A stretch of 40,958 nucleotides of DNA, from IMG/VR virus record IMGVR_UViG_3300035698_002307, positions 1 through 40,958 of that record; one strand, written 5' to 3'. The notes under the pieces were generated by a model. It had not been told where the DNA came from. It saw nothing but the letters and a program-made list of their open reading frames with translations, and did not search any database. Source of the DNA: a virus. This document shows, in pieces, positions 124-40,958 of this stretch. Each line of letters opens with the position of its first letter. Positions within the stretch are counted from its first letter, which is position 1. The translations under genes were made by a program, and so were the position numbers.

Positions 124-140
124 TCTAAAAAGAAAACAAG

Positions 141-464: not shown

Positions 465-475
465 AACTATACGAT

Positions 476-2095: not shown

Positions 2096-2097
2096 TT

Positions 2098-2722: not shown

Positions 2723-2739
2723 ATTATTCTATACCTTTG
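2709..2739 (+). promoter_or_regulatory. Bacteroidetes-type promoter candidate
   Basis: TTG at 2709-2711, a 20-base spacer and TACCTTTG at 2732-2739 fit the TTTG-N19-21-TAnnTTTG layout of primary-sigma promoters in Bacteroidetes. Transcription would begin around 2745, at the left end of the structured noncoding stretch. The -33 part overlaps the end of the preceding gene. Confidence 0.5.
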
Positions 2740-2744
2740 CGATA

Positions 2745-2880: not shown

Positions 2881-2886
2881 ATATAT

Positions 2887-3875: not shown

Positions 3876-3880
3876 ATATT

Positions 3881-5207: not shown

Positions 5208-5214
5208 TAAAGTT

Positions 5215-20254: not shown

Positions 20255-20856
20255 TGGATAATTTAAAATATGTTCGGGTTGACAATATCTACCAGCGTCT
20301 AACCCAAAGGCTCGGAGGGAGAGAGTTTCCTTTTGAGGACATCGTTGAATGGTGTGCTGAATGTGAGTTGATCGAGATAGGTCAGTTCACAGACTGGTTC
20401 CGCTTTCAGGATGTCAAGATTGAAAATATAATCGATCGTCAAGTAGCACTACCAGAAAACTGCTGGTATCTAAAGAACGTCAAGATAGACACATCCCTGT
20501 ACGCGAAGTATATCAAGTTCTACCTTAATGGAGAGTACATAAATCTTGAACAAGATTATGATACGATCTATATAGATTACTATGCTTTTCCCACAGATAC
20601 AGTCACAGGCTATCTCATTATCCCTAGAGGACATGAGAATGCTTGCTTCTGGTATTGTATGAAGAGCATACTTCTTGAGGATTGGCTTGAGGGCAAGATC
20701 GATCAGAACCGTTGGAATACTATCCAGAGAGAGTATGAGATGGCTGTTGAGAAAGCAGTTGCTCAGGCTCAGAGGATATCTGATAATGAAAGAGCTGAAG
20801 TTCTGGACGCAACTAGAATCATAGCACGTAACTATAATGATCCTACGAGACGATGA
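20254..20856 (+). CDS. Neck/tail ring protein
   Basis: 200 residues. N-terminal part VRVDNIYQRLTQRLGGREFPFEDIVEWCAECELIEIG, then a beta region (LPENCWYLKNVKI...YIKFYLNGEYINLE) and a C-terminal helix bundle (FWYCMKSILLEDWLEGKIDQNRWNTIQREYEMAVEKAVAQAQR). This order, a short helical start, central strands including a Y-x-x-x-x-x-YLNGEYI-like hairpin and a helical end, is that of tail-tube or ring proteins next to the stabilisation protein in crAss-like podoviruses. TAATG-type overlap with the previous gene and ATGA overlap with the next place it in one translation unit with the stabilisation protein. Confidence 0.75.
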   Translation: MDNLKYVRVDNIYQRLTQRLGGREFPFEDIVEWCAECELIEIGQFTDWFRFQDVKIENIIDRQVALPENCWYLKNVKIDTSLYAKYIKFYLNGEYINLEQDYDTIYIDYYAFPTDTVTGYLIIPRGHENACFWYCMKSILLEDWLEGKIDQNRWNTIQREYEMAVEKAVAQAQRISDNERAEVLDATRIIARNYNDPTRR

Positions 20857-23800: not shown

Positions 23801-24617
23801 AATGAATACCGCTATGAGGTCTGATTATAAAGGACAGTCCTACTTCCCTAAAATTGGGTTCAGAGATCTTGCACAAAGAGCTTATTCAGAAGATAGAAAA
23901 GAGTCTTTCTCCCTGAATAAAGGATACAACAGAATGTTCTCTCCAAGACAAGTTCTTGGTTACGATCCTAAGTTTGTCATAGAAGATAAGATCAGAAGGA
24001 ACAGACATAGGTTCTCTGATGAGAACGATTCTACTTCGCTTATTGACGGCTTTAGAAGTTTTAAGGAATATTCAATGCGAGACTTTACAACTGCTGACGG
24101 ACAGATTATGAAGATAGCTGAAGTTAACGGTTTCCTTATCTCTGTTTGCGAGAAGGCTATTAACCTCCATTATGTTAATGAGAGGCAGGTCCATGTTGAT
24201 CCTAACAGTCCAGATCTGGTACTTGGTCGTGGTGATATATTATCTTCTAAGATAAAGAAACTGACCGACTATGGTACTCAGCATCAATTAAGCGTTGTTA
24301 AAGGAAAGAACCTTTATGGGATAGACTTCATAAGAAGAAAAGCTTGGGTTATTAAATCTGCTTCTGCTGGAGGTTATTCTACTACTGCCGGTGCCGATCT
24401 ATCAGGAGAACTCATGATGAGTAATTACTTTAAAGAGTTATTCACCGAATGGGAAGCTTTCAGTACCAGAGAGTATGTCTTCTCTGAAGGTCCTTTCCAA
24501 AAAGAGGGTATCCTTGGAGTATATGATCCTAAGAACGAAGAGGTATTATTCGTCTTTGTTCAAAGAAGAGAAGAAGATTTGTCTGATTTCACTGTATGGA
24601 ACCCTACTGAACCATGA
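20853..24617 (+). CDS. Large stabilisation/tail hub protein (P22 gp10-like)
   Basis: 1254 residues. Starts ILNKFSGGQINDPDVSVRQNNNFAGATNIRL followed by VITNIKGN. This 'F-x-G-G-x-x-x-D...A-x-N-I-R...N-x-x-G-N' opening is the hallmark of the P22 gp10-like 'packaged DNA stabilisation'/muzzle family of podovirus tail hubs. The rest is a long series of beta strands and loops with many Asp, Tyr and Trp, consistent with a beta-propeller-containing protein that closes the tail after packaging. Near the C-terminus (KEYSMRDFTTADGQIMKIAEVNGFLISVCEKAINLHYVNE) the strand pattern continues. Larger than gp10 (about 470 residues), as in the crAss-like relatives. Overlaps neighbours by 4 bases on both sides. 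Confidence 0.8.
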   Translation: MSEEQKKYILNKFSGGQINDPDVSVRQNNNFAGATNIRLFQDEKGLVITNIKGNKYSEADKVGFKISEGYIPLGGCELNGILYVVSAKEEFVNSDEVAHGGEIGCFPSWTSHDGLGELENVYRPLQNFYDETDTLGDFRTDEFLFSLDHPVEAFAWNLVDGSTNIYFTDFNKPIRVVNNGFRYDGESNDVTYKDSYFPNAVSLILSGNKTLLIDDFTVETGGKLKGGNYFFFLRYANYQLNPTHFLAESKPIQMIYGQSTVQHTEGTFDESGKKVTFTLSNLDFAYKYVQIAYVRYTSDEVGDEVFETGLVNMDYPIPDEDPLVDQTMDITIVGTEGDRVITIEQILQNRLEDDVCRSIAPIDNRMFGACWKSANVHHSSMVDFAKLITITFNDDTKFYGHNYSLSDPIDAGVRDNWDSNLYDSNCGYKDHYRTANEVGYFRGETYPFGVQFELNTGHLSAAYPIQAQDDWQGTLSPAVKSNYDGIYRFPSTVVSPLTTEDVAKAQKIHILKPEFNLIEAVAAAMVDGSVDGLGWIRRNVRAIRIVRGERYRTLEFQGLAMNCSSPRTITTEDWEMTRDCSLYPTASFTDGSHVTPEIAYLQFDTSTGTWEQFWGFFTDKDEVLGYSGFNESRFWGSEGKTPTLITRTNIDENVHRDAFIPLYRGYAPMVYKDKDKDRDPDSDVKKVNVKNYCSRWFMDQHKLSVFSPDFMFNSLLDISKISSIHSIAKTIPQSYVKGTTEGKWYHDNLIPESGNIPWSDIYPRWTYAECLGVMDEGDEVLNSSVDFTKHAVGDEVDHLPQNANNSFVNVTKDFWQSDVEAMYFATDNKENYIWSNRSIATPKYIGLHLNELPASGNFNLDLVNLYNIPDPSVFDISNAFNTSYTRYSLIGDVINLDWDNIDLEGADAVLENHIIGGGDCFLQRTYFKINGWSGTSLYDVGWENLNPETEIETDFPKKLVRGNEVERVKFTHGVVVGVVTENVMNTAMRSDYKGQSYFPKIGFRDLAQRAYSEDRKESFSLNKGYNRMFSPRQVLGYDPKFVIEDKIRRNRHRFSDENDSTSLIDGFRSFKEYSMRDFTTADGQIMKIAEVNGFLISVCEKAINLHYVNERQVHVDPNSPDLVLGRGDILSSKIKKLTDYGTQHQLSVVKGKNLYGIDFIRRKAWVIKSASAGGYSTTAGADLSGELMMSNYFKELFTEWEAFSTREYVFSEGPFQKEGILGVYDPKNEEVLFVFVQRREEDLSDFTVWNPTEP

Positions 24618-26362
24618 GTACTACTCCGCAAACAATAGATATAATACACACGATTGTACTACCGGTATTGACTGGTGTATCTTCTTATGCTGCTGGCACT
24701 TCTCTTGATGTAAGTGTCAGTATAGTTAACAAAACTGCTAGTGATAATTATGCAACCAGAGTCTTTTATTCCTTTTATTTCGGATATATGGAAAATGGTT
24801 ATTTTGTCTTGGTAGAAACGGGGGATGAGTACGAGGCAGTGCAGGATCCAGCAACCGGAGCGGATCTTCAGTTGAATCCTGGTATATTATTTAATTTTAC
24901 TTTTTCTCATACTCTTCCAGCTGATACTACTCCGGGTACAAATTATTGTTATAAGATTATTGTTGTTCCTGACAAGGCTATAATTGATCCAATGGTGTTA
25001 AGGCCATGTGTTGCATATACTGATATCTTTTCTGTAGCGCTCCTTAGTTCTGATTGTGCCTTATTGAAGCTTGTACTTGATACACCAACACCAGTAACCT
25101 GTCTTATTAATCATGGTAATGCTACTATATCCGCAACTGTACCTTATGGAACATCTATTGTAGCTCTGACTCCTACATTTATTATAAGTGCTGGTGCTAC
25201 TGCTTACATAGGTGCTGTATTGCAAACCTCTGGTGTGACAACAAATGATTATACTGGTCCAGTGGTATATAAGATACTTGCTGAAGATAGAGTGATGAAC
25301 AGAGAGTATACTCTTACCGTTACTATAGCTGGTAAGATATTTGGTGATAGAGCGGTACTTGGACTATACACACCCAATGGAGCTTATCCTGATGTCCTCA
25401 AGATAGGGCAAACGGCAAGGCTTAGTTGTTCGGTAGCTAACACTTCTTCTACTGTAGATTATGCAGGAACAGAAGGAGCTGTTATTTATATCTATTATCA
25501 GAATCCAGTAACCTTAATTTGGGTTATGCTTCCGGAAGCTACTATTCCAATAAATAAGTTGATACCCCATAGAGTCACTATTAAGGGCAGTTTAAAGACT
25601 TATTATGAAACCTGTGTTGGTAGTTGGAAAGTCAGAGATAACATCCCATATGGACAGTATGGTACTCTCACTATGCAAATGAAGTTATCTGGTGGATCAA
25701 TGTCAACTCTTCCGTTTACGATAACTCTTATAAAAGAGCAACCTCTTATAGATACTTTAGCTTATTCAGAAAAGTTGAATCTGTTTCAGGGAGATAGAAC
25801 ATATAAATCATACCACTTCTTTAGGCTTGATAATACACTATACTCAGCAAGAGAGTTGGATGGAGATACAGGAGATACAGGAAAGTCTATCTTGAAATTC
25901 TATAAGCAGGATGTTACTAATGAACTGTTTCTCTACTCACACATAAAGAACGATGTCGTGAAGTGGGATCTGATATTCTATGTTAATAATCCGGTAGCTC
26001 AGGTTATCTTCCAGAGCATAGTCCTTGAATGTGGGGAGTACTCAGGAGAGAGGTTGGGTATTGATAGCATTGAATATAATACATCTAAGTATCATGTTCA
26101 TCAAGATCCATTCTTTGATGATGCTATATATGAAGCCGCAGGAAAACTTAAAGGTATCAGTTATCAATGGGAGAATCCTTGGCAACCGGTATGGAAGAAC
26201 GACAAATGGTATTTGAGTATTAAGAATGCTACTGATGATACAAAACTTATCACAAAGCAAAAACTCAAAGGGATGTGGATTAAAATTACACTTAATGGAA
26301 CTGGTGGAGATATGATGTTTATCCGATCAGTTGTTACAAAAATTGCTCATCAATTTAATTAG
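24614..26362 (+). CDS. Beta-domain tail appendage protein with DUF5018-like domain
   Basis: 582 residues, almost all beta. Residues 1-140 form a CARDB/Ig-like domain (LDVSVSIVNKTASDNYATRVFYSF). Residues about 147-240 fit the DUF5018 pattern known from Bacteroidetes surface proteins: ATVPYGTSIVALTPTF, ISAGAT, QTSGVTTNDYTGPVVYKI, AEDRVMNREYTLTV. Residues 250-350 are another beta sandwich. The last 200 residues form a distinct C-terminal domain (IEYNTSKYHVHQDPFFDD...LKGMWIKITLNGTGG). It could be a tail spike base or receptor-binding appendage. The host-type domain hints at recruitment from the host phylum. ATG overlaps the preceding stop by 4 bases (ATGA). Confidence 0.65.
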   Translation: MSTTPQTIDIIHTIVLPVLTGVSSYAAGTSLDVSVSIVNKTASDNYATRVFYSFYFGYMENGYFVLVETGDEYEAVQDPATGADLQLNPGILFNFTFSHTLPADTTPGTNYCYKIIVVPDKAIIDPMVLRPCVAYTDIFSVALLSSDCALLKLVLDTPTPVTCLINHGNATISATVPYGTSIVALTPTFIISAGATAYIGAVLQTSGVTTNDYTGPVVYKILAEDRVMNREYTLTVTIAGKIFGDRAVLGLYTPNGAYPDVLKIGQTARLSCSVANTSSTVDYAGTEGAVIYIYYQNPVTLIWVMLPEATIPINKLIPHRVTIKGSLKTYYETCVGSWKVRDNIPYGQYGTLTMQMKLSGGSMSTLPFTITLIKEQPLIDTLAYSEKLNLFQGDRTYKSYHFFRLDNTLYSARELDGDTGDTGKSILKFYKQDVTNELFLYSHIKNDVVKWDLIFYVNNPVAQVIFQSIVLECGEYSGERLGIDSIEYNTSKYHVHQDPFFDDAIYEAAGKLKGISYQWENPWQPVWKNDKWYLSIKNATDDTKLITKQKLKGMWIKITLNGTGGDMMFIRSVVTKIAHQFN

Positions 26363-26368
26363 AATGTT

Positions 26369-27586
26369 ATGGCTATAATGCAACGAAGAGCGAGAGCTCA
26401 TACACAACCAAGTAATGATCCGGAATATGGTAGGATAGCTTTAGATATGGTTTCTGGAGGTCTATATGATTCTCTTACTAAAGAACCTGTTGGTTACGGT
26501 GATGGTATAGGAGGAAAGATAGCAAAGACGGTCACCAACAATTCAGCAAAAGCTTATTCTGCTATTCCAGTAGCCGGTCCTTTCATTACAGGAGGTATAG
26601 AAGCTGGTAAGATGATAGGTAATACTGTCAAGGGAATAAGAGCTTCAGATGGTTCAGCTGAAGATATAGCTGGTTCTATTCTAGGAAATGCTGGAGGGGC
26701 TTCATCTATTATTAGTGGACTGTCTTCAGGTGTCAAGACAGATAAGTTTGATCGTGGAATAATGGTAGACTCACCTATCGGAGCAGCAAGATCAAGAACT
26801 TATGTTGATGAGAAGCAACCAGTACTCCTTGCTGAAGCTGGTATGAAAATAGATAATAAACAACCAGACTATGCAGGTATTCTTAAGTCTCAGTTTACTC
26901 AGCCATCTACCTCTATGGATTTTCATAAAGATGATACGAGGGTAACTAAAGGATTAGGGGTATCAGATAATTCAAGCATTATAGGTGGAGATGAAATACC
27001 ACTGATACAAAGAAATCCATTCAAAGTTGGTGAAGGACCAATAAGTGATAGATTTGAAAGGAGTGCAATGGGAACAGCTAATACATCAGCAATCTTTAAT
27101 GCTGGTAGTATGTTAGCTGAAATTGGGTATCTGGCAGCAATTGCAGGAGACAAGCATACTACTTCTCAAAGACCAGAGACTATCGATCCAGTAGATCCTA
27201 GAGTTCCAATGAATGCTATTAGAAGCGTTACCGGACTTAGGACAGACAAATATTTCAACTCAGCTCTAAGAGAGTCCAGGGAGTCAGGAAAGCCACTAGC
27301 TTTAGGTGATGTACTTGAGAACGAAAATGCTCTTAATGCTCAGACAGCACAATATCTTTCTTCGATATTAAATGATGCACAGAAGACCAATGTTGATGTT
27401 CAGGCTAAGAACGCTAGCATTCTAGCAAGTTTCAGAGATTCTATTGACATGATGAGGATGAGAAATCAATCAAGAAAGGATCAAATTCTAGGGGCTCTTG
27501 TATCAGCTCCCAACAAGTATGCTCAGACTACTTTGAATAACTACGCAAACACTTATAGTAAAATTGAAGAATCTCAAACTAGATAG
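26369..27586 (+). CDS. Gly/Ala-rich probable internal virion protein
   Basis: 405 residues. Residues 40-130 are Gly/Ala/Ser-rich with hydrophobic stretches (AIPVAGPFITGGIEAGKMIGNTVKG, SILGNAGGASSIISGLSSG). Residues 235-260 hold another (SAIFNAGSMLAEIGYLAAIAG). The remainder is helical and charged. Such proteins in podoviruses are packed inside the head and ejected with DNA, where the flexible hydrophobic parts may help line a channel through the envelope. Its position between tail and giant-protein genes fits the 'cargo' slot of crAss-like phages. No known enzyme motif. Stop TAG at 27584-27586, 2 bases before the next start. Confidence 0.65.
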   Translation: MAIMQRRARAHTQPSNDPEYGRIALDMVSGGLYDSLTKEPVGYGDGIGGKIAKTVTNNSAKAYSAIPVAGPFITGGIEAGKMIGNTVKGIRASDGSAEDIAGSILGNAGGASSIISGLSSGVKTDKFDRGIMVDSPIGAARSRTYVDEKQPVLLAEAGMKIDNKQPDYAGILKSQFTQPSTSMDFHKDDTRVTKGLGVSDNSSIIGGDEIPLIQRNPFKVGEGPISDRFERSAMGTANTSAIFNAGSMLAEIGYLAAIAGDKHTTSQRPETIDPVDPRVPMNAIRSVTGLRTDKYFNSALRESRESGKPLALGDVLENENALNAQTAQYLSSILNDAQKTNVDVQAKNASILASFRDSIDMMRMRNQSRKDQILGALVSAPNKYAQTTLNNYANTYSKIEESQTR

Positions 27587-27588
27587 CA

Positions 27589-29877
27589 ATGGCAATAAGA
27601 GACGGACTATCAAACAGCGGTGTAGACCTAGTATTACCTAAACCAATAACCCTTAACTGGCCTTCAAGTGGTAGGCAAGGAACAAAAAGATCAGCCATGC
27701 AACAGCTGGAGGGTATAGGTTATGGAACTACACCTGAACAGGACTATGGTACAATAGAACAGAAGAGGTTCCTTTTAGATCAGGAGAATAAACTTATTGC
27801 TCAGGCAGGTAAGGGCCTTTATGAATACAATGACATGAGCTACTGGCTTGATACACCTACAGGGAAAAAATGGACAGAAGATTGGGAAGCCTTGAGATTA
27901 AACCAAAGTTGGATGATGAAAACATCTAAGGGTATCGGTACTCAAAGACAGATGGCAGAATCGCACCAAGTAACAGACCAGCTCGTTATTGATCCTAAAA
28001 CTTATAAACCAGTACTTCGTGATAATAAACCTATTACTTATCAGGAAGTATATGATGAAACAGAAGCAAAAGGTGGAATAACAGCAGGAGGACAATATTT
28101 CTTACCCAAACTACCATCTCTTTATGATAAGAGGGGAATAGAGACAGAGATTGATAGACTAATTGATAGACCAGCCCAGGTTAATGAGAGAATGCAGAAT
28201 ATATTCCTAAACAATCAGAAACTTAGTCCTGAAGGTAATATTCCTAACACTATGATAGGTATGATGAAGTTTGAGACTATCTCCGGCCAGACGAACTTGG
28301 AAGGAAGGAAAGAAGTTATATCTGACGTCCTTAATGTAGACATAGACAATCTAGGTGTAGATAAGAACAACCATGTCTATTTCAAGGGTGGTGATATTGA
28401 TCTTAACAAGACAAGGTTTACTCAGGACATGATTATGAATCTTGCTAATGAGTTCTTTCATGAGAAGATGGCAGGTGGAGAATCAGGAGAAGGAGGGTTT
28501 AAGACTTCAGATAAAGAGTTTCAGAAGTATGTAGCTGATTATGCTATTGATCAAATAAATTCAAAAGCTATAGAAGAAGATACTCAGGTTGATTATAATT
28601 TCAAAGCGTTTGATGATCCTAATGCTGGATTCGATACTGAACAGAAGGCTCTAAAAATGACATATGGTGAGTTTGCATCAAATCCCTATTTGGTAGAAGC
28701 TAATGCAAGACTTATGGATGGTGTACCAATCTATTCTATGAGGTATATGGAGGGTGATAAGCAAGGAGAACTAAGTAACGATCCAGAGGAATCCGGATAT
28801 GTAAATCCTATTGGTTGGAAAATCCCAATGAACGTTTTACATGATAATCCAATACTAGACAGAACAGCTTATGGTATGAGCATTAAGGGAAGATCGTGGA
28901 AAGCAGAAGATGTGAAACCAAGAAACTTTGGTTCATATATGATTGATCTTCTTACTGGTAATGCAATGCTCACTGATAAGAGTGATGGTATTGTATATTC
29001 AGCTGGTGATCTTTATTCATTACCTCAACTAGTACCAACTGAAACTGGTAGTTCTGCAATATCATTAGGTGAGAGAGATGGTAAACAACAGTTAGCTCTA
29101 CAATCATATCAGGAAGTTGAAGTCTATTTTAACGCTGATACTGATAGGGCTTTTCAGTCAATGAAATATCTAACAAGCAAGACTGCTAAAACGAGTAGTG
29201 AAGATGTTACTGCTGCAAACAAAATTGCACTAAAACTATTATATAAAAAGAATAGTAACAATATCAAAGACAACCAAAGAAAGATTCAACGGTTTACGAA
29301 AGACTTAAAGGGCTTTTCTTATCAAGAGACTGATGTGTTGTATGACTTTTTTAAGAAATTAGCAGATGACCCTGAATCAGAATATATTTTTACAGATAAG
29401 AAGAACAAGGCCGAGTTACTTCATAACCTGACTGTTCTTGAACGAGATTATTATGCAAAGAGACAGAAAGAACTTGAAGGTTCTAGTGAATCATTCTTAG
29501 ATGGTTTTAATGTTTACAAAGATATAAAGGACAAGTATTTTCCAAGTCCACAATTCTTTGGAGAACATAACATTGCTTATGTTAAACAAAAGCCTATTAG
29601 TTTAAAAAAGTTTCTCAAGTCAGATGAAGCCGAGTTACAGGGGTTCTATAAAGTTGAAAATCCTGATCCCGATATAGCATATAATTTGAAGGCTAATCCT
29701 AAAGATGGCAATATCTATCGTAAGAAAATGCTTATGCCAATTTCAAGAGGACTGTCTAGTTTGATAGGAGATCCTAATCAGAACCTTGGGAACGAGACAC
29801 AGGGTGTACAGGATGTTCTGAGAGAATATGATAGAGAAGGTGCTGTAAATACAATAAAAGAAGATCCATACAAATAG
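27589..29877 (+). CDS. Probable internal (capsid cargo) protein
   Basis: 762 residues, mostly helical and charged with no hydrophobic membrane segments. Many Asp/Asn/Lys and long Glu/Lys helices (residues about 560-640). No Cys pairs or catalytic motif that I recognise. The gene lies between the Gly/Ala-rich internal protein and the giant gene, with gaps of 2 and 27 bases, so the three probably form one late unit. By size and place it resembles the large capsid cargo proteins of crAss-like virions. It may be packed with the giant protein, but this is context only. Confidence 0.7.
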   Translation: MAIRDGLSNSGVDLVLPKPITLNWPSSGRQGTKRSAMQQLEGIGYGTTPEQDYGTIEQKRFLLDQENKLIAQAGKGLYEYNDMSYWLDTPTGKKWTEDWEALRLNQSWMMKTSKGIGTQRQMAESHQVTDQLVIDPKTYKPVLRDNKPITYQEVYDETEAKGGITAGGQYFLPKLPSLYDKRGIETEIDRLIDRPAQVNERMQNIFLNNQKLSPEGNIPNTMIGMMKFETISGQTNLEGRKEVISDVLNVDIDNLGVDKNNHVYFKGGDIDLNKTRFTQDMIMNLANEFFHEKMAGGESGEGGFKTSDKEFQKYVADYAIDQINSKAIEEDTQVDYNFKAFDDPNAGFDTEQKALKMTYGEFASNPYLVEANARLMDGVPIYSMRYMEGDKQGELSNDPEESGYVNPIGWKIPMNVLHDNPILDRTAYGMSIKGRSWKAEDVKPRNFGSYMIDLLTGNAMLTDKSDGIVYSAGDLYSLPQLVPTETGSSAISLGERDGKQQLALQSYQEVEVYFNADTDRAFQSMKYLTSKTAKTSSEDVTAANKIALKLLYKKNSNNIKDNQRKIQRFTKDLKGFSYQETDVLYDFFKKLADDPESEYIFTDKKNKAELLHNLTVLERDYYAKRQKELEGSSESFLDGFNVYKDIKDKYFPSPQFFGEHNIAYVKQKPISLKKFLKSDEAELQGFYKVENPDPDIAYNLKANPKDGNIYRKKMLMPISRGLSSLIGDPNQNLGNETQGVQDVLREYDREGAVNTIKEDPYK

Positions 29878-29904: not shown

Positions 29905-32900
29905 ATGGAAATTGTTGATCCCCAAAAAAACCAAGATAGACTTGGTACTGAACCTTTGGATGTAGATGTTTTTGAGAATGTGTTTATTAAGAACATGACA
30001 CCTGAGTATTTAGCATCAAATATCAAACGAGGTGATAATATAATTCTTAATTCTCCTGAATACTATGTTAATAAACTTGGTATAGGTGAAGACGAGGAAG
30101 CATTAAATAAATTCAATAGCAGTTATGGTCTAGCTAAGGAGTTGGCTACTGATTGGATATCAAGGAAAGAGATATTTCCGGATAAGATTCAAACTTCTAC
30201 TCCGATAAATCCTACAAGAGCAAGGATAGGTAACTTCGAAAGAACTGTCACAAGTGATGTCCTCAATAGTGTTCAGCATATGGAAAATGAGTATGGTAGG
30301 AAAATTTCACCATTCTCAGAGCAACAAAGAGCTACATTGAATAATTTCTATGTTGAGGAAGTGGATGGTGAACTGGTTCGTAAGGATGAAGCTGTCCTTG
30401 GGTCAACACGAAGAGATAACAACATGGTTCTTGATTATGATTGGGATGGGAAGTTTGGTGAACCAGGTAATCCTATTTGGAAGAAAGTTCCTTGGGGTCA
30501 GGAAACATATGGTCAGGCAAATGCTAATGTTTGGGGAGATCCTAAGAAGTCAGGTACAACACTTATGGATGGTATCTTTGGTTTTGCTTCTGCAGCAGTT
30601 CCAAAAACGATACTTGAAGGTGTTAATACTGCTAAGTTCCTTTATGATTTTGCAAGACAAGGAAAGTTTGATCCTGAGAATGCGACTGATAAGATGTTGA
30701 ACCATACTATCAATCAGCTTGAATCATACACGTATGATCAGTCTGAAGAGTCAGAGGGGCAAGGACCATTACAATCATGGAGTGGATTCTATACTGGTGC
30801 TATGGATATGGCAGGTCAGTTACTTCCTCAATTACTATTTACGGCAGGACTTAGTAAAGCTGTTATGGGTGGAGTCCGGAAGATGGCACAGAAGAAAGGT
30901 CTTCTTACTACTTCAAAAATAATGGCTGAAGAAGCATTAGAGAAAGCTGGTGGTAAGGTTATGCCTAAAGCATTCTCTGGTATTGCACAAGCACGTAAGA
31001 GAGCCCTATCTCAGATTAATAGAGGCGTTACAGGTTTTGGTACAATGCAAGCGGTTGGCGACTTCTATAGTGGGGCCCGGGAAGCTGGTCTTAATAGACA
31101 GGATGCGGCTAGTATGGCTATGCTGGCTTTACCTGCTGTTTACATGACTAATAGATTACTTACTACTCCTTATCTGACAAGAAGTTTTGTTGCTGATACA
31201 GGAGCAGACTTAATGGAAAGTGCTGCTGAAGTAATAACTAAGAGTGTGGTTAAGAGTGCTATTCCTAAGGGAGATGTTGGACAGACTAAATTAGTTAAAC
31301 AGATCTTTAAGAACTTCTTTGGTAAGAAAGCCGTCAAGGACAAGATTAAATATTTACAGAATACAGTTGCCCAGGGTAAGTTACCTATGGATGCAGTAAA
31401 AGGTCTTAGTGGTGCCATAAGAGAAGGTTCTCAGGAAACACTTGAAGAGATGTGGTATGTAACCCAGGAGATGATCCACGATAAGATAAGGAAAGATAAC
31501 GGGTCCTCAACAAATCCTAATGATCCAAATTTTAAAGGTTACTTCGACACCAAGTTAGACTGGCCTACAATAAGAGATAGGTTCCTTGGTAGTTTTGTCC
31601 TTGGTGCAATAGCAGGGGGAGCTGTAGATGCTATGGCTGGTGGACATACACAAAGTACATTAGTTGATAAGATTAATAAACTTGTAGTTAGTGATGGTGC
31701 CAAGGGAATAGATAGTGCTATTGCACAGGGAATGGCTGGTTATAAGACTGGTGGATTCGGTTCTAAAACCTTTACACCTGACGGTAGGATAATCCATAAC
31801 GATACACAGAAGCCAAGTGCTCAATTCACTCCTGATCAGCTAATGGATAAGCTTACTAAGGAAGAGAAGAAAGTTGTTAGTGAGATTAAAGATCCTCAAG
31901 CACAGGAACAGGCTGTTATCGATATCAATACTCAGAAAGGAGCTATCTCACAACCAGTAGTTATCCCTGAAGGGGAAACAATACCTGGTCTTGAAGGAAA
32001 GGCCGAACTCTATTCAGAGAACGATATCAACTATTACAATTACGTTAAGCAAGTACAGGCTCAAGCAGAACTGATAAAAGAGTCTGGCATAGATGATGCT
32101 CAGATGCTCAAAGAGATTGCTGACGACAATACAAAGGAATATGGGATCCAACAGTTTTCCAATGCAGTAGAGACCGCTGCCGCGATGAAAGCTACAAGAG
32201 CTAAGATCGAAGAGACTAAGCCAATAGAAACCGATAGTCCTGAAGTTACTGCTAAGAAGAATTCTGAAGTAGCAACCTTTGAGGAAACAATGGTAGGTCT
32301 ACAAAATAACTGGAACAATGCAGTTGTCCCGGAAGAAGGATCTAAGTTCAGTAAGAACATCAATGATTTTGTTAAGAGCACACAGGCTTCTATGGTTTAT
32401 GCAAAGGAACAAACTCTTAATCATTTCAGAGATAATCCTGAATCAGAAGAGAACTTCGATAAACTGTATGCAAAGAACAGGCTTAAGTATATCATAGAGC
32501 GTGCTGATGACCTTTACTTCCAAGATATAAGGAAGATATTCAATAAATATTTAACTGATGTCAATAAGGCTACAGCAGCTAAACAAGAGGTTAGTGAGAA
32601 AGCTATCCCCAATACTTTGAAATTTCTTGAGACTTATGATCCTACCAAGAACAAAGATCTATCTAAACTTCTCAAGACAGAGAAAGGGCAGTTGGGCTTG
32701 ATAAAGGATCTCAATGAGCTTGTAGCTAATCCTACTTTCGCTAACATCAAGACTGAAGGTGGAGAAGATATTGATGTTGTCCAGGAAGTAGATGAACGTA
32801 TAGCAGATGTTCAGAAGATCTTTGAAGATAATATGAACGAAGAGTTACCTGGTGCAGCAGAAGCTTTCCGTCAGTACAACAGGTACAATGAGAGTGAAAA

Positions 32901-35900
32901 GATGAATGTCTTTGAACCAATACCAGATTTTACTGATGAGATTGATAATGCTGGTGAGCCAACGGAAGAAAGAGTAGCAACTATTGAAAATCTTAATGAT
33001 GAACAACAACAGAAGATTGAAAAGGTTGTTGGTCCTCAGCAAGAAAATGAATCAGATGAGGATTATGCTGATAGAATAAATGTTCTAATTAGTGAAGATC
33101 CAAAAAAGCAGAAACAAGTAACAAAGATTCAGGAAACGTATGATAAGAAACTAACAAAAATACAAGAGAAGGCTCCTACTACTCAAGATCTATATGAGAA
33201 CCTTGGAGAAGAAGAGAAACTTAAGGCTGATTCCTATAAACAACCTAAAAGGAAGAACGACTATATCAAGCAGGTTAATAGGATGTACAAGATCCTTGAT
33301 GAGATAGTTCCTGATGAAGCAGCTTACCAGAATAATATACTTACAGGAGAGACTATTCCAGCTCTAGTACGACAGGCTAAAGAAAACTCAAATACTTTTA
33401 ATAAAAGCAATATACCTGAAGTTCCAAATATAGCAGGTAAACCTATTGAAAGTTTTGATGATCTTAACCAGGCAGGAGAAGAAGATCAGTTAGAGAAAGA
33501 GGCTTTCATGTGGAATGCCTTTACCTATTCTAACAGACAAGCTCTCCAGAGGGTACAGGATATTCTTGATCGTCCAGATGGTGCTGACAACTTAGCTGTA
33601 GCTCCTAACATAGAGGAGTATGTTAATAGACTTGCTGGTGAGACTAAATCATGGACAAAGGTTGCTGCTTATGCAAACAAAGTTCTTGAGAACTATCTCC
33701 GGAAGAATCCAGATGAGAATGTCAGGGGCCACCTAAACAATAATGATGTTCCTATTTCTGATGGTCTGTATAATGGTTATGCTGATAATAGAGAAGACGG
33801 TGGAAAAGGAAGAAGATCTTTATCAGATGAGTTACAATATTTATCTGATTGGGCTAATAGAGTTAAATCTCAGGTACAGGAAGCAAGGAGGGCGAAGAAC
33901 TCTCAGATAACAGAGAATTCTATTATTGTAGCTGCTGTTGCCAGAAAAGGTTATGAACTTATATTTGAAGCTGCCGGTTTAACGGAAACTGGAGGTAACC
34001 AGATCAAGCAGATGTTGCAGGATCTATCAGATCTTAAACCTGAAGATATTGGGAAAGATATCTATGAGAGTGCTGAGAATAACGAGAAGATACTCAAGTC
34101 TAAAAAGGCTTTGTTTGCTATCAATAAGTTTATGTTTGAGAATAGCGAGGCTTTCACTGATGAGGTAAAAGCTAAACTGTTTGTTCCTTATGTAGAGATC
34201 GAGGGTAGAACATATGTAAATGAGATAGATAACGAACTGTCTTCTTCTGATTCCGCTAACACTTTGAAAGAAGCACTTACAGGTAAGGGTAAGATAGCTA
34301 AGGCTTATCTTCATGTGATGATGGTTAATCTTCTTGAGATGTCAAGTGTAAACATTAAGGAAACTGAACTAGCACGAAGTCAGATTTATACTAATGAGAA
34401 TAATGGTTCTGTCCTTCCCGAGACTCTGGAACAGATGCTTTCGGTTAATCAGCTATCAACTTTCCTTGATAACGGGAAGACAATATTTGTTGACAGTATA
34501 GTTAAACTTGAGCTGGAGGCTCTTGAAAAGAAACTATATAATGATTTCATCAATGCTGGTCTTGGAGAAGAAAGTGCTTTAGCTCAGTCAAAAGAACAGA
34601 TTGCTCGTTATAAGAGAAATTATTCTAATGAGACTATATCTGTTAGAGGTGATTTAGATGCAGGTAAAACAACTGTAGTTCTCAAGATGGGGTTTTGGAC
34701 TCATCTTATTAAGAATGGTGAAGGTACTGAGAAGACTGTAGCTGTTGTTACGCATACTCCTGAACTAGCCACAACATTAATGGCTACTCTGGGCCCACTA
34801 AAATCTGTAGGGCTTAAAGTTGTTCCAATGACTACTGGTGATGTGCTTCAAGCTAAGGCTGAGAACCTGACCGGTAAATTTGATTTTATCGTATGGGATG
34901 AGGCAGGAGCTTTGGTAGAACAAGATATTGCTGACCTGTATGCAAATACAAAAGGCGTTCCTAAAGTATTGATTGGTGATATTAGTCAGCTGGTTCCATT
35001 AGAACGAGCAGATTCTACTTCAGCACTTCGCTCTGTAGGGTTTAAGACAACTCCAATTACTATTCAGCACTCCACTAACAATTATGCTATTAAGCAACTT
35101 ATTGATATGGCTAAAGATCATATCTATAATCTACTTCAGGATCCTAATCTAACTATTCAGACAGATGAATATCCTATGGCTTATCATCAGGAGATACCTG
35201 TTCAACCAGGATCAAATGATATCATGCTTGATGGATTAGAATATTATGCTACTCCGGAAGATGTTATAAATGCTTTCCTTACTAAGAAAGGTATTAGAGA
35301 TAAGGGTGAGAGAGCGATAGTCTTTCTTAATGAGATTCAGGTTAAGAAGTATGCTACTGCTTTTCCCGAACTACTGAATAAACAAGGTCAGATTTTTATG
35401 GCTGATCCTGATATCAGAGGTGGGGTAAGACCGCTTACAGGAAAGTCTAATGGACATGATTTAACTCTCACTTTTGGAAGTGTTCAGGGACTAAGAAGGA
35501 AAGAAGTCTTTGTCCCTTGGAAAGACAGCACCATAAGATCAGCAGAAGGTATCAATCAGAATAATCCTTCATTACCAGGCAGAGCTCTTTATACAGTCTA
35601 TGGAAGGACTGGAGGTTTTCTTGGAGTTATGGGTCCTGTGTCTCAGAATACAACAGATCAGATGCAAGGCAATTGGATTGAGCCTACAAAAAGATCCAGA
35701 GGTAAAGCAGGTCTATCTGAAATCTATGCTCTTCAACAAAAGTATTTAAGAGAAGTCCTTGGGGCTACAGATGCAACTATCACTTCAGAAAGTAAAGGAC
35801 CAGTAATTGATGAGCCAGCACCTAAGACTGATGGAACGATACGGTCTATTGATAAATCTAAAGTATTCGTCAAGACTGGAGGTAAAGGTAATATTGGTGT

Positions 35901-38900
35901 TCAGTTCTATATCAAGCCTGATGCTGATGGTAAAGCTGAAGTCTATAGAGGTAATATCGTAGCTTATAAGTTTGATCAAGATACAGGTGAGCCATTTGAT
36001 CCGGAACAGAAGTTCTACATGAGAGCTCACAATGCTAAGTTGCTAAGTGATACAGGGGCCACACCAACATCTCAGAGCAGTCAGAATGCGACAAAGCCTT
36101 CTATGATTGCCAGAGATAGTACTGGTGCTGATATAGCTCTTAATGAGAATATGGCTTACCAGATAGGAGATGAGGTTGTCTATCTCAAAGAATTGGGTTA
36201 TGAAAATGGTGAACCGGTAGCTACGTTCTATGGGATGTCAGGAGAAGAGTTTTCTCTTCCTCAAGATCAGATATTACTTAACGGACCAGTAGATAGCATT
36301 CACCAGAGAGATCCGGCTTATAACAATCAAACATCTATTATGTCTCGCCTCTATGGTGAAGGTAAGATGCCTTTGTTTGGATCAACCTTTGGTACTGTCA
36401 TACCTGCTGGACACAACTTTAAGAGTATTGCTGATGTAGAGAAAGAGATGGATTCTATTAAGAGGATCATTCTATCTACTGTACTAAGGTTTAATGTTCC
36501 GTTACAGTTAGAATATAACAATGGCGCCATGTACGTCAAAGTAATGGATACCGACATAGCAAAGAATAAATTAAAGACTAGCCTTGATGTAGGTTACAAT
36601 AGGGATAATTTACCTGTTGGTACTGCAAGGGCCCTGAATAAAGCTATCAAGGGAGAATATGGTGAAACCCTCTATTACTTAGCTACTCTGACTACTGATG
36701 AGACAAAAGAATTCGATCCTAATGCTTTAGATAATATCAAGCGTTTGATGGACTATGGTAAACTTATGTCCAGTCGTAGTAGTAACGGTATCCATGTCTT
36801 TAAAGCTATTGGAGATGTAGGTAATCCTGCAAGTATAGGTATCCATCGTGCAATGACTGGTGTTCTACAGAAATCTGATAATCAACAGCCACTATCAGCA
36901 TGGGAGAAAACCTTAACTGATATGGGTTATGTAGTCGAAGAGAATGTCAAGCAAGAGATAAAGGAAGGTCTTCAACCTAATGGTGATCCTCAAGTTGGAT
37001 TGGTTAAGTACTTCAATATAGGAGGACAGGAAGGACATTTCTATCTAAGTGCAAAGAAGATGGAAGAAGCTGATACTGCTCAACTGTTAAAAGCTCTTGG
37101 TCAGGACTCAGATAAAATACAGGCTGCAACTGCCGGTGAGATGAATACAGTTATATCTCAGACCTACCTGGTCCATATGTTAAAGAACAATAACTCTGTT
37201 ATAAAGAAAAGTCCAGAGCTAAAAACATTGCTTGATAGTTTTGGGGTTACATGGCCCGAGAGAAGACTTACTGGATTAACAATAGATTTTGGTTCTAATG
37301 TAGATGAAGAGAAAAAGAACTTCACTGCACTAACAAGACATATTACTAAGAATTGGATTAACAACCCGGGAGAGGTAAAAGCTATCAAGGATCTATATCA
37401 ACCAATAAAGAAAGATAAGGAGTTGATGTATTTCGATCCTAGAGTTCCTTCTGAGCTGGTAGTAAATTATGATGGTATTAGATTTCCGTCTGTCTTCTTT
37501 GATATCCAGAGTGTCCTTACTGAAGACACACCACAATCAAACGATAATACTGATCAATCAGATGTTGATGGTATGTGGGATGATGCTTTTATGGTGTCTA
37601 ATGCCAATGAGCCATTTGATCCATTAGCTGAAAGAGAAGCTGTCAGGTGGATGAATAAGATTATTGATACCAGTCAGCTTGATCTACACTTTCCTGGCAT
37701 GCAAGATCCCAATGCAGGTAAGAATGTTATTTATGGTATGGTTCGTCATCGTGATAATCAATCACACACTCAACTTCGTTCCTTCAATGGTAATGTAGAT
37801 AAAAGATCAATCAGACATGAGACTGTTCACAATGTTTGGAGATATGTTATAAGTCCTAAAGCAAGAGACCTTTTAGCTAAGGAGATAAGAATTCTGGCTA
37901 ACAATCCTACTATGACAGAACCACAAGCTGAAGAGTATCTGTCAAGGAAATATCATAACAGTTCTACAGCAGAACCGAAAGGTAGAGATCCTTGGTTCAC
38001 TAAATCAGGGCTAATACAACGGTTTAAGCAGTTCCTTGATCGTTTTAGGATCAATATGGATAAGTACCGGCCTACAATAGATAAGTTCTTAAATGATATA
38101 GAAACGGGCTTATTTACAAAAACATCAATGAACTTCAATCCTGATATCGATTGGGCTGTTTATAACAGAGATGCTTATATGTATTCTGATCCTTCAGAAG
38201 AGGGAGAGGGAGAACCTATTGATCTCGATAAGGAAGCAGATCTAGAGAACCAAGCTTTAAAGAAAAGCCAACAACTAATGCCTATCTATGACACTCTTAT
38301 TGATTCCTTTGGTGACTCAGCTAATATAGAGGTTGTAACTAAACTTGTATTCAATAGGATTAAATCAAAGACCAGGTACAACAATAACAGAGCAAGACAA
38401 TCAAATTTTATCCCACTAAGTATAAGTGATGCTGTTGATCAGTTAAGAAAAGAATATGATGTATCAGCAGAGAAAGCTTATCAGGGAAATCGTGCTTATG
38501 AGATTACCGGACTAGGTAACACACCAGTTAACAAGATATCTCTTATCCAAGCTCAGATAGAGAAGAGGCTTATTCAGGATAGAAAGGAAACAGTTCCAAA
38601 AGGACTAATCTCGGATGTTCTTAATAAAGAGCTCTCTAAGTTCGATACATACAATACTGTTATCAGTCACATCTTCCCTACTTATGATTTTGCTGGTGAT
38701 CGTTCCACAAAGATGACTGAGGATATGTACACCGACAGAGAGAAACTTAATCTTGAGTTCTATGTAAGTAACTTCTTTAAGCAACTGGTAACCTCAACTC
38801 CTTTAAGGACAGCTTTAGTTGGCACAAACAAGCTAAAAGCTGTCAGTTATGATAAGGACGGCAACCCAAGGCATACCCATTTCCTTAATGATGTTCCTAT

Positions 38901-40958
38901 CTATAACTACCTAGCCAATGCCGGAGAGATAGCTCTAAAGACTCTTAGTAATCAAAGAAAAGGAGCAGTAGTAAAAGTATCTCCAAGGGAAGCTATCAAG
39001 GATGCTTTATATGCAGAAGCCAATCTTATCACAGACAACAACGATAAACGTAACTCTATTCTCAGTTTTATTCACACATGGATAGAGGATCTGGAAGGTA
39101 AAGGAAATTCTTATTTCGAATTAGCAGAAGAATGGAAAGCTAAAGGATTCCCTAAAGAGGATTCAGAATACGCAGATGTTGGTTTCCTTACTAATGCTTT
39201 GACTAACCTGGTTCTTAACTACGATAAGGTAAGTCAGACAGATCTTAAAGTGATCAGGGTATATAAAGATAATGTGGAGCATATAATCCATATTCCTTTA
39301 GACCGGTCAACAAATGTTTATAGCCAGTTCAAGGATGATATCATTAAGAAAGTAAAGAAAGAATTTATCTCTCTTGAGGAAAGTCCTGTTAATGCTTACA
39401 AGATTAAGCAGGTGATGAACGACTCTCCTAAAAAGGCTAAGACTTGGGAGGTAGCAAAAGATGGGATCCGGTTTGTTAAGAACGGTCAGAACATAAAAGT
39501 TATTGATGCTAGAGTTCAAGGGAATAAAATGGTATATACTTTCTCTAGGGATTTCGCTAGTCAGGATAAGAAATGGTTAGATGGAATGACTCAGGAGTTC
39601 ATGAGGTATATGGGTCTTAACCATATCAACAACAATGTATTTGACTTTCTTGTTAATCCGCCTGTCTCAGAAACTTTCTTTAAGTATTTGAAGAATAGGG
39701 CACCGATGAAGTTTGATAAGAAGACTTTTGCAGATCAATACTTCCCAACGTTCCTATACAATTATCTTGCAGGGATAAAGATTCATGGTGAGATAAATGA
39801 GATTCATGATAGCCGTATAGCGGAACTGTCAGAGCTTGATTATACTGGTCTCACTGAGGAACAACTTACAGCAGAGTCTGTATCAGCAAGGAAAGCAGCA
39901 ATCCAAACTACTAAGGATAATTCCTACCTCTATGGTCGTGTGATGAACTATATGAAAGAAACGGGTCAGATAACAACCATGAAGGTTCCTTCTGAGGATA
40001 TCGATGTAGATGAAGAGATTGTCGATGGATCGATTAATGAAGGGTTACCGTTTCCTACTGACTTCTATCAGTTCTTTGAGACTGTTGGTTTAGTACAGGC
40101 ATATTACCAGAGAGAAGAGTCAACAAAATCTATTACTGATCTAGCTAACAATAACAGGTATGTTCATAAGGTTGGATCTGAAGGATCAAAACTATTCCAA
40201 CAAGGTAGTGCTTGGTTTGAACAGTCTTTTCAGGATCTCATTACTAATAATGAAGGTGACTATGATTCAGAGATACTTTCTAATTCTCATGTAGCGAGAC
40301 TTAACAACGGAGAGATAGAATATCTTAATCCTCTTATTGAGCCTAGTAATGGGTTCCGGATATTAGATATTAGAAATCTACAGTCTATGAAATTCCATAA
40401 GGCTGTTACTGATCTTTCTACTCCTGACCTAACCTCAGCAATGATAGCTTACTTCTTTAATGGAGCTAAGAAAGGAAGTGAAGAACTTGTAGTCCCAATG
40501 ACCAACAGAGGGGCCTCAAGACATATCAACATGGCTAAGTTCAAGTTAGCTGATGGAGAGAGATTATTTCCTAATAAGCCAAAGATTGTTGATGGAGTAC
40601 TAACTAACCCTGACTATGACAATAAGGTTGTCAATAAGTATATTGGTAAGAAGTTCGAGCAGACAGCACATAAATTCAAGATAGCCAGAAAGAAGCTTAT
40701 CAATGCTCTTAATGGTACTGAGTTTGAATCATACTTTACTGGTATAAGTAAGCTGACCGATCCAGCTAAGATATCTAAGAATCTAATGGAGGGTGCAGCA
40801 GCTATCAAAGCTGAAGGACCTGAGAAGCATCTTGCTTTTGTAGACCACATGAAACTTACACTTCCGGAGACAACAGTATTTGATTTCGATGGAGATAATA
40901 TAATTGCTGGTAACGACATTCGTTTTGATGATCCTATATACAATCAGAAGAACTATAA
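29905..40958 (+). CDS. Giant multidomain polyvalent protein, truncated by window edge (at least 3,684 codons)
   Basis: ATG at 29905 opens a frame with no stop up to the right edge. I translated every line, and the last complete codon is Tyr at 40954-40956. Order: Ala/Gly-rich hydrophobic segments at about residues 222-236, 300-315, 400-415 and 560-580, as in podovirus ejection proteins. A motif REGSQETLEEMW follows at about 508-519. Then charged coiled-coil/linker regions. SF1 helicase, about 1545-1915 (GDLDAGKTT 1582-1590). Zincin motif HETVH at 2638-2642. DFDGD at 3660-3664. Multi-enzyme giant proteins of this type ('polyvalent' proteins) are packed in virions and injected to act early in infection, and crAss-like phages carry virion RNA polymerases in giant proteins. 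The function of the whole is inferred. Possible self-processing by the zincin domain is speculation. Confidence 0.9.
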   Translation, partial: MEIVDPQKNQDRLGTEPLDVDVFENVFIKNMTPEYLASNIKRGDNIILNSPEYYVNKLGIGEDEEALNKFNSSYGLAKELATDWISRKEIFPDKIQTSTPINPTRARIGNFERTVTSDVLNSVQHMENEYGRKISPFSEQQRATLNNFYVEEVDGELVRKDEAVLGSTRRDNNMVLDYDWDGKFGEPGNPIWKKVPWGQETYGQANANVWGDPKKSGTTLMDGIFGFASAAVPKTILEGVNTAKFLYDFARQGKFDPENATDKMLNHTINQLESYTYDQSEESEGQGPLQSWSGFYTGAMDMAGQLLPQLLFTAGLSKAVMGGVRKMAQKKGLLTTSKIMAEEALEKAGGKVMPKAFSGIAQARKRALSQINRGVTGFGTMQAVGDFYSGAREAGLNRQDAASMAMLALPAVYMTNRLLTTPYLTRSFVADTGADLMESAAEVITKSVVKSAIPKGDVGQTKLVKQIFKNFFGKKAVKDKIKYLQNTVAQGKLPMDAVKGLSGAIREGSQETLEEMWYVTQEMIHDKIRKDNGSSTNPNDPNFKGYFDTKLDWPTIRDRFLGSFVLGAIAGGAVDAMAGGHTQSTLVDKINKLVVSDGAKGIDSAIAQGMAGYKTGGFGSKTFTPDGRIIHNDTQKPSAQFTPDQLMDKLTKEEKKVVSEIKDPQAQEQAVIDINTQKGAISQPVVIPEGETIPGLEGKAELYSENDINYYNYVKQVQAQAELIKESGIDDAQMLKEIADDNTKEYGIQQFSNAVETAAAMKATRAKIEETKPIETDSPEVTAKKNSEVATFEETMVGLQNNWNNAVVPEEGSKFSKNINDFVKSTQASMVYAKEQTLNHFRDNPESEENFDKLYAKNRLKYIIERADDLYFQDIRKIFNKYLTDVNKATAAKQEVSEKAIPNTLKFLETYDPTKNKDLSKLLKTEKGQLGLIKDLNELVANPTFANIKTEGGEDIDVVQEVDERIADVQKIFEDNMNEELPGAAEAFRQYNRYNESEKMNVFEPIPDFTDEIDNAGEPTEERVATIENLNDEQQQKIEKVVGPQQENESDEDYADRINVLISEDPKKQKQVTKIQETYDKKLTKIQEKAPTTQDLYENLGEEEKLKADSYKQPKRKNDYIKQVNRMYKILDEIVPDEAAYQNNILTGETIPALVRQAKENSNTFNKSNIPEVPNIAGKPIESFDDLNQAGEEDQLEKEAFMWNAFTYSNRQALQRVQDILDRPDGADNLAVAPNIEEYVNRLAGETKSWTKVAAYANKVLENYLRKNPDENVRGHLNNNDVPISDGLYNGYADNREDGGKGRRSLSDELQYLSDWANRVKSQVQEARRAKNSQITENSIIVAAVARKGYELIFEAAGLTETGGNQIKQMLQDLSDLKPEDIGKDIYESAENNEKILKSKKALFAINKFMFENSEAFTDEVKAKLFVPYVEIEGRTYVNEIDNELSSSDSANTLKEALTGKGKIAKAYLHVMMVNLLEMSSVNIKETELARSQIYTNENNGSVLPETLEQMLSVNQLSTFLDNGKTIFVDSIVKLELEALEKKLYNDFINAGLGEESALAQSKEQIARYKRNYSNETISVRGDLDAGKTTVVLKMGFWTHLIKNGEGTEKTVAVVTHTPELATTLMATLGPLKSVGLKVVPMTTGDVLQAKAENLTGKFDFIVWDEAGALVEQDIADLYANTKGVPKVLIGDISQLVPLERADSTSALRSVGFKTTPITIQHSTNNYAIKQLIDMAKDHIYNLLQDPNLTIQTDEYPMAYHQEIPVQPGSNDIMLDGLEYYATPEDVINAFLTKKGIRDKGERAIVFLNEIQVKKYATAFPELLNKQGQIFMADPDIRGGVRPLTGKSNGHDLTLTFGSVQGLRRKEVFVPWKDSTIRSAEGINQNNPSLPGRALYTVYGRTGGFLGVMGPVSQNTTDQMQGNWIEPTKRSRGKAGLSEIYALQQKYLREVLGATDATITSESKGPVIDEPAPKTDGTIRSIDKSKVFVKTGGKGNIGVQFYIKPDADGKAEVYRGNIVAYKFDQDTGEPFDPEQKFYMRAHNAKLLSDTGATPTSQSSQNATKPSMIARDSTGADIALNENMAYQIGDEVVYLKELGYENGEPVATFYGMSGEEFSLPQDQILLNGPVDSIHQRDPAYNNQTSIMSRLYGEGKMPLFGSTFGTVIPAGHNFKSIADVEKEMDSIKRIILSTVLRFNVPLQLEYNNGAMYVKVMDTDIAKNKLKTSLDVGYNRDNLPVGTARALNKAIKGEYGETLYYLATLTTDETKEFDPNALDNIKRLMDYGKLMSSRSSNGIHVFKAIGDVGNPASIGIHRAMTGVLQKSDNQQPLSAWEKTLTDMGYVVEENVKQEIKEGLQPNGDPQVGLVKYFNIGGQEGHFYLSAKKMEEADTAQLLKALGQDSDKIQAATAGEMNTVISQTYLVHMLKNNNSVIKKSPELKTLLDSFGVTWPERRLTGLTIDFGSNVDEEKKNFTALTRHITKNWINNPGEVKAIKDLYQPIKKDKELMYFDPRVPSELVVNYDGIRFPSVFFDIQSVLTEDTPQSNDNTDQSDVDGMWDDAFMVSNANEPFDPLAEREAVRWMNKIIDTSQLDLHFPGMQDPNAGKNVIYGMVRHRDNQSHTQLRSFNGNVDKRSIRHETVHNVWRYVISPKARDLLAKEIRILANNPTMTEPQAEEYLSRKYHNSSTAEPKGRDPWFTKSGLIQRFKQFLDRFRINMDKYRPTIDKFLNDIETGLFTKTSMNFNPDIDWAVYNRDAYMYSDPSEEGEGEPIDLDKEADLENQALKKSQQLMPIYDTLIDSFGDSANIEVVTKLVFNRIKSKTRYNNNRARQSNFIPLSISDAVDQLRKEYDVSAEKAYQGNRAYEITGLGNTPVNKISLIQAQIEKRLIQDRKETVPKGLISDVLNKELSKFDTYNTVISHIFPTYDFAGDRSTKMTEDMYTDREKLNLEFYVSNFFKQLVTSTPLRTALVGTNKLKAVSYDKDGNPRHTHFLNDVPIYNYLANAGEIALKTLSNQRKGAVVKVSPREAIKDALYAEANLITDNNDKRNSILSFIHTWIEDLEGKGNSYFELAEEWKAKGFPKEDSEYADVGFLTNALTNLVLNYDKVSQTDLKVIRVYKDNVEHIIHIPLDRSTNVYSQFKDDIIKKVKKEFISLEESPVNAYKIKQVMNDSPKKAKTWEVAKDGIRFVKNGQNIKVIDARVQGNKMVYTFSRDFASQDKKWLDGMTQEFMRYMGLNHINNNVFDFLVNPPVSETFFKYLKNRAPMKFDKKTFADQYFPTFLYNYLAGIKIHGEINEIHDSRIAELSELDYTGLTEEQLTAESVSARKAAIQTTKDNSYLYGRVMNYMKETGQITTMKVPSEDIDVDEEIVDGSINEGLPFPTDFYQFFETVGLVQAYYQREESTKSITDLANNNRYVHKVGSEGSKLFQQGSAWFEQSFQDLITNNEGDYDSEILSNSHVARLNNGEIEYLNPLIEPSNGFRILDIRNLQSMKFHKAVTDLSTPDLTSAMIAYFFNGAKKGSEELVVPMTNRGASRHINMAKFKLADGERLFPNKPKIVDGVLTNPDYDNKVVNKYIGKKFEQTAHKFKIARKKLINALNGTEFESYFTGISKLTDPAKISKNLMEGAAAIKAEGPEKHLAFVDHMKLTLPETTVFDFDGDNIIAGNDIRFDDPIYNQKNY
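34540..35650 (+). other. SF1 helicase domain inside the giant protein
   Basis: Residues about 1545-1915 carry the superfamily 1 motif series in order: I, GDLDAGKTT (K1588); II, IVWDEAG (D1665, E1666); III, LIGDISQLVP (1690-1698, the RecD/Dda-type GDxxQLxP); a motif IV-like VFLNE; V, FGSVQGLRRKEVFV (1857-1870); VI, LYTVYGRTGG with R1901 as the likely arginine finger. The DEAG and GDxxQL signatures point to the RecD-like SF1B branch, which moves 5' to 3' on ssDNA. All core residues are intact, so an active ATPase is expected. It could unwind or pull incoming DNA. Confidence 0.85.
37600..38130 (+). other. Zincin (HExxH) metallopeptidase-like domain inside the giant protein
   Basis: RHETVH (H2638, E2639, H2642; bases 37816-37830) gives two zinc ligands and the catalytic Glu. 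A Glu in AEEYLSRK (2676 or 2677) is well placed as the third ligand. Before it, a domain start (REAVRWMNKIID...LDLHFPG) and after it a helical region (FKQFLDRFRIN...IDKFLNDIETGLF) follow the shape of zincin domains in phage polyvalent proteins. It could cut host proteins or process the giant protein itself. Confidence 0.7.
40882..40896 (+). other. DFDGD motif, RNA polymerase-like catalytic loop or degenerate HAD motif
   Basis: Residues 3660-3664, in TTVFDFDGDNIIAGND. The universal metal-binding loop of multisubunit RNA polymerases is NADFDGD, QDE-1-type enzymes have DxDGD, and crAss-like virion polymerases have DxDxD. HAD hydrolases have hhhDxDG[TV], which would need Thr or Val where Asp is found. 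The window ends 20 residues later, so the fold cannot be judged. Confidence 0.35.

Follow-up and report, generated by a model that had tools for sequence, protein, structure and literature searches.

A giant open frame behind crAss-like structural genes

The window, as we call the whole 40,958-base stretch of DNA analysed here, carries on its plus strand a terminase, a portal, a capsid gene, tail genes, a muzzle gene, three further genes and a giant gene, in that order. The large terminase (5559-7550) was identified by tblastn to crAss terminases and by a terminase tree, and the portal protein (7550-10099) by tblastn to crAss portal proteins; both share 20-28% identity with their crAss phage counterparts (tblastn). 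The three families by which we recognized a Crassvirales-type phage were all matched: the crAss-type major capsid protein (11140-12579; PF23898, E = 1.3e-23), the muzzle protein of the tail tip (20853-24617; PF25731, E = 2.1e-29) and ring 1 (PF24228, 1e-16). In the terminase tree, for which few families were sampled and midpoint rooting was used, the window lies inside its own clade of 15 rows (support 96/97) and outside crAss001, cr1_1, cr124_1 and Fpv1. As judged by these sequence comparisons, it belongs to a crAss-like bacteriophage of a deep-branching clade. Upstream of the terminase lie a DUF3127/SSB-like protein (1036-1584) and a CHAP-domain protein, a probable lysin (3881-4384).

Between the muzzle gene and the giant are three plus-strand genes of 582, 405 and 762 aa (24614-29877). 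No curated family scored above its cut-off for any of them; from their position, they are probably cargo proteins. In crAss001, phi14:2 and Fpv1, this slot is occupied by the genes for cargo and transcription proteins; at the giant's place, Fpv1 encodes a 4,401-aa 'structural protein'.

The giant gene opens with an ATG at 29905 and runs on the plus strand through 3,684 stop-free codons (29905-40956) to the window edge, as the original prediction had described. With a stop probability per codon of 0.073 from base composition, the chance of such openness is about 1e-121. A frameshift or assembly error within the frame had been named as the finding that would undo this reading. Scored by the codon usage of the window's other late genes, frame 0 comes out ahead in all 13 consecutive 900-base blocks, and GC content is even (0.36-0.41, against 0.386 in the other late genes); we therefore ruled out a frameshift or a chimeric assembly. 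The standard code applies, since TAA, TAG and TGA all serve as stops of predicted genes in the window. The source record consists of the 40,958-base window only and ends before the giant's stop codon. The frame contains the motifs GDLDAGKTT (aa 1582), WDEAG (1664), GDISQL (1691), HETVH (2638) and, as the original prediction states, DFDGD (3660).

Modules of the giant and their conservation

To find homologs, we aligned the terminases of the closest relatives, drew further clade members out of IMG/VR with this alignment and took ten records. Eight of these (G035, G036, G037, G039, G040, G041, G042 and G043) contain the complete giant, in each case as a single standard-code open reading frame of 6,414-6,829 aa from the first Met (722-774 kDa). 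On the shorter contigs G034 and G045, no such giant was found. G034, itself a clade member, has upstream of its terminase a 4,436-aa minus-strand frame that runs off the contig end (L318-L319, 22511-35818); this is not the polymerase giant and is perhaps a fibre or adhesin.

A profile of 6632 positions, built from the eight complete giants with the window left out, matches the window protein collinearly at aa 89-1732 (profile 117-1580, E = 5e-38) and aa 2511-3684 (profile 2576-3691, E = 5e-29); aa 1733-2510 are not spanned. Nothing passes when the profile is run against five shuffles and the reversed window protein. The profile worked well where single-sequence searches with the giant did not: Pfam, PHROGs, NCBIfam, PDB, tblastn and related loci gave no matches or weak ones at chance level, and the window protein, used as a single sequence, found no match in 32 crAss-like records or in its own clade. 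These searches were unproductive because divergence is too high. Since residue 3684 aligns with position 3691 of the 6632-position profile, about 56% of the chain lies in the window. We expect the frame to encode the first 55-56% or so of a protein of roughly 6,600 aa, with some 2,700-3,150 codons beyond the edge. The predicted single product of more than 410 kDa thus has its counterpart in the complete homologs, while the window's own stop is beyond the edge.

The order of modules along the chain is an N-terminal ejection-type region, an SF1 helicase, a first zincin, an RNA polymerase (RNAP) active site (RxP..GSDYDID) and a second zincin. In the N-terminal ejection/cargo region, the sequence EGSQETLE (aa 507-514; 31423-31446) fits an EG-x-[EQ]-E motif that most clade homologs keep in the alignment; 12 crAss-type first giants fit a closely similar pattern. 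Together with the zincin, the window protein thus has both the EGxEE-type motif and the YHEAFH-type zincin of a crAss gp47-type cargo giant. The N-block profile on its own gives a match that is no more than suggestive (domain E 0.01, against 0.25 for the reversed control). Hydrophobic, ejection-like segments had been predicted in the plural; we found one strongly hydrophobic 19-residue stretch (aa 560-578, 31582-31638; Kyte-Doolittle peak 1.64), a possible membrane helix. It is followed at aa 700-1250 (32002-33654) by a long charged stretch (12% E, 10% K and 9% N), part of which resembles even its own reverse and which is likely a flexible or coiled linker.

The SF1 helicase domain spans aa 1490-1960 (34372-35784). 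AAA_30 matches it in all nine clade sequences, the window (E = 4.9e-4) included, at best with 1.7e-13, and a clade helicase profile run against the PDB has RecD, Dda and PIF1-type structures among its best matches. Four motifs can be read along the domain: motif I, GDLDAGKT (aa 1582-1589, 34648-34671), with G, G and K invariant in 9/9; motif II, DE (aa 1665-1666, 34897-34902), with E invariant in 9/9; motif III, GDISQL (aa 1691-1696, 34975-34992), with D and Q invariant in 9/9; and motif VI, ALYTVYGRTGG (with its arginine at R1901, 35581-35613), with T and R invariant in 9/9. The predicted helicase is therefore borne out by its motifs and by AAA_30 in all nine members, and it looks intact, with the catalytic K, E, Q and R in place. 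A single-sequence structure model of the domain (pLDDT 35) was useless.

Outside the clade, the helicase profile matches G027 (2.5e-11), L215/MT835470 (1.2e-10), G026 (6e-6) and G019 (8.9e-11), but not crAss001, phi14:2, Fpv1, ProJPt-Bp1 or the other sampled giants. In G027 (counted over two adjacent open reading frames), L215 and G026, the helicase lies some 1,420-1,690 aa into the first giant, similar to its place in the window; in G019, a Dda-like helicase comes after the RNAP in a chain of 6,083 aa. The helicases of G019, G026 and G027 were also picked up by a simple scan for Walker A. Scanning for the pattern FxxWDEAG returned four loci, three of them terminase-like and one a short frame. 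Crass-type giants with a helicase are also encoded in MT835470 (L215) and MT835492, two records of human-gut phages that carry no annotation.

Zincin 1, of the crAss gp47 type, lies at 37591-38130, with HETVH at 37816-37830 (aa 2638) and either E2660 or the EE at aa 2676-2677 as candidate third ligand. A profile of 11 other crAss zincins aligns with the window from the HExxH onward, with a domain E of 2e-4 where the best shuffle reaches 0.39, and a crAss zincin profile matches clade members at 7e-13 to 1e-8. The zinc-peptidase motif of the original prediction is hence, by sequence, an aligned relative of the crAss gp47 zincin. Its HExxH is kept in five of nine sequences (G035, G039, G040, G043 and the window) and lost in G036, G037, G041 and G042. 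The HExxH of zincin 2, at about 5,090-5,490, is present in all eight complete giants. In the giant of G002 (L095:13168 to L096:10306), a zincin domain at about aa 1990-2140 is retained with GTAYWEAMRR replacing YHEAFHR; the catalytic motif is lost and the domain kept, and the domain can therefore persist without its peptidase residues.

Beyond the window edge, the eight complete giants all carry RxP followed by GSDYDID, at aa 4169-4680. The crAss RNAP profile matches G041 (6e-15) and G040 (9e-9) and falls below E 0.01 in just these 2/8, so the assignment in the other six leans on the clade alignment and the motif context; a profile of the clade RNAP region found no match to the solved phi14:2 polymerase in the PDB. 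Within the window's 3,684 residues there is no DxDxD with an upstream RxP, and the crAss RNAP profile, which detected the polymerases of the distant relatives G025 and G026, found nothing there. A polymerase had been predicted on the chain: it is present in all complete homologs, at another site than the one proposed and outside the window. From these relatives, we infer that the window phage has its own RNAP encoded in the 3' part past the edge. In the giant of G025 (L113:1092-12992), the RNAP motif is an unusual run of acidic residues, GSDDDGD, and the RIP upstream of it is retained. In cr124_1 (NC_055899; L209/L210), a zincin-bearing giant frame from 93765 has no annotated CDS and is open only if TAG is read as sense; CDS 22-7902 of the same phage, named DNA helicase, contains the RNAP motif, whereas our Walker A pattern finds no match in it.

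The C-terminus of the clade giants is matched by a crAss001 gp49 profile (3e-8), and phi14:2 gp76 matches the clade profile (5e-14), indicating that the three are related.

A probable single chain for ejection and transcription

The chain is one frame in all complete members, and its domain order and catalytic residues are conserved over the nine sequences; zincin 1, the RNAP and the C-terminus are homologous to crAss proteins by profile and motif. We conclude, with a probability of about 0.78, that the window frame is the 5' part of a gene whose product, in a deep-branching clade of crAss-like phages, unites transcription and ejection on a single chain. By homology, the job of crAss001 gp47, gp50 and gp49, two to three cargo proteins, appears here as one chain of about 6,600 aa, with a helicase inside the gp47-like part. 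A self-contained virion machine had been proposed: the union of helicase, zinc peptidase and RNAP on one chain beside internal virion genes stands in eight complete homologs, and the reading of DFDGD as its polymerase does not.

By analogy with crAss001, phi14:2 and P23-45, the giant would be injected, its polymerase would be active and its helicase would act on DNA; a virion location, an order of entry and a role for the helicase would follow the same model. The chain would probably sit close to the portal inside the capsid and leave through the tail partly unfolded, N-terminus leading; the N-terminal region may help to form or cross an envelope channel. The two-barrel RNAP half would then refold in the cell and transcribe early genes off the incoming DNA, while the tethered helicase, moving on the entering phage DNA, could open promoters, clear the template or draw DNA in. 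Most simply, a helicase tethered to an injected polymerase would serve promoter opening or DNA traction during entry. The full version, in which the whole clade injects one 720-770 kDa chain that is channel part, DNA motor, RNA polymerase and peptidase, and the covalent helicase-polymerase drives DNA entry and early transcription, is tentative, and we give it somewhat less than even odds.

The strongest competing view concerns the helicase alone, which might be a passenger effector that counters host defence, or repairs or replicates incoming DNA, and takes no part in transcription. Polyvalent proteins combine helicase and peptidase domains. Multidomain polyvalent proteins are used by phages and plasmids in host conflicts (PMC5512222), and the Dda-like helicase of G019 sits elsewhere on its chain, after the RNAP. 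Against this, the place of the helicase is fixed and its motifs are conserved in 9/9 clade sequences, with a similar place in L215, G026 and G027, which suggests an integral part; we regard the passenger role as unlikely, if a serious contender.

A little less probable still is a polyprotein: the frame would be translated whole and the product then cut, either ahead of packaging or once injected, with its own zincins as possible proteases. The same modules are separate proteins in other crAss phages, and with zincin 2 kept in 8/8, every complete member has at least one HExxH. Yet the HExxH of zincin 1 is lost in four of the eight, as also in G002, and no cleavage site was identified in the giant.

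That the gene ends soon past the window edge, with the RNAP in a separate gene, is improbable. Such a split exists in crAss001 and phi14:2, and in G026, G027 and L215 the RNAP has a gene apart from that of the helicase-bearing giant, but within the window's clade each of the eight complete giants is one chain, and the window matches the clade profile right to its last residue.

The RNA-polymerase-like DFDGD (aa 3660-3664, 40882-40896) is almost certainly not a polymerase active site: it fits the letters of the two-barrel RNAP signature, and P23-45 gp96 also has DFDGD (PMC10770324), but no RxP lies about 30-35 residues upstream, it follows the HExxH by 1,022 aa where eight other crAss giants have 1,430-1,810 aa to their RNAP site, and the homologs carry an unrelated 'ikkdgsnvllGNs' there, without an acidic triad, with their true site about 500-1,000 aa downstream. 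A pattern scan for FDFDGDN returned 25 viral loci, and the window protein matches none of them. We also considered VFDFDGD as a HAD-phosphatase motif and dropped this idea, since the homologs have no such motif at this position.

Comparison with known systems

In crAss001, gp45, gp46, gp47, gp49 and gp50 were found in virions by mass spectrometry (PMC10172136); for the window's clade, we found no virion proteomics in the literature. The phi14:2 RNAP transcribes early genes (PMC7886860, PMC10136315), crAss RNAPs reach about 6,000 aa (reviewed in PMC10136315), and giant transcription proteins have been described as a hallmark of the crAss-like group (PMC7886860). The block of crAss001 gp47, gp50 and gp49, and of phi14:2 gp66 (PDB 6VR4) with its neighbours, occupies the same slot after the muzzle and cargo genes as the window's giant, and it shares homology with the clade giant in zincin 1, in the context of the RNAP motif and in the gp49-like C-terminus. 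The crAss001 block is three proteins, whereas the clade giant is one chain of 6,414-6,829 aa, and unlike the latter, the giants of crAss001, phi14:2 and Fpv1 have no detected SF1 helicase.

Eight other crAss giants of 5,259-6,227 aa (G017, G019, G011, G022, G028, G015, G009 and G002) join a zincin-like domain and then a GSDFDIDK-type RNAP on one chain. Unlike those of the clade, most are open only with TAG as sense, and only that of G019 has an SF1 helicase, placed after the RNAP. The first giants of G027, G026 and MT835470 (L215) resemble the window in having an SF1-type helicase (clade profile E 2.5e-11 to 6e-6), but their RNAP is in a separate gene and zincin 1 was not detected.

Giant virion polymerases are also known from N4-like phages, whose RNAP of about 3,400-3,500 aa is injected for early transcription; it is a T7-type single-subunit polymerase, unlike the two-barrel enzymes. 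Two-barrel polymerases made of a single chain work with neither sigma factors nor the subunits that cellular RNAP has. A lineage whose polymerase chain also carries an SF1 helicase with conserved catalytic residues offers a direct way to test how such enzymes open DNA during injection. With the clade giants, a protein that would have to thread a phage tail would reach about 6,800 residues, and the module order on the chain would fix the order of emergence from the tail.

A published parallel is gp96 of the Thermus phage P23-45 (5,002 aa), which, like the clade giant, joins a virion RNAP, a metallopeptidase and membrane segments on one chain, and whose transcription is thought to be coupled to DNA entry (PMC10770324). 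It differs in that its RNAP is N-terminal, the chain is the tape measure protein of a long tail, and no helicase is mentioned (PMC10770324). In the open-access literature, outside which many papers lie, we found no helicase-bearing single-chain version conserved across a clade. Giant crAss RNAPs and the fusion of RNAP with a metallopeptidase were thus already published, and the new element is the helicase on the giant chain.
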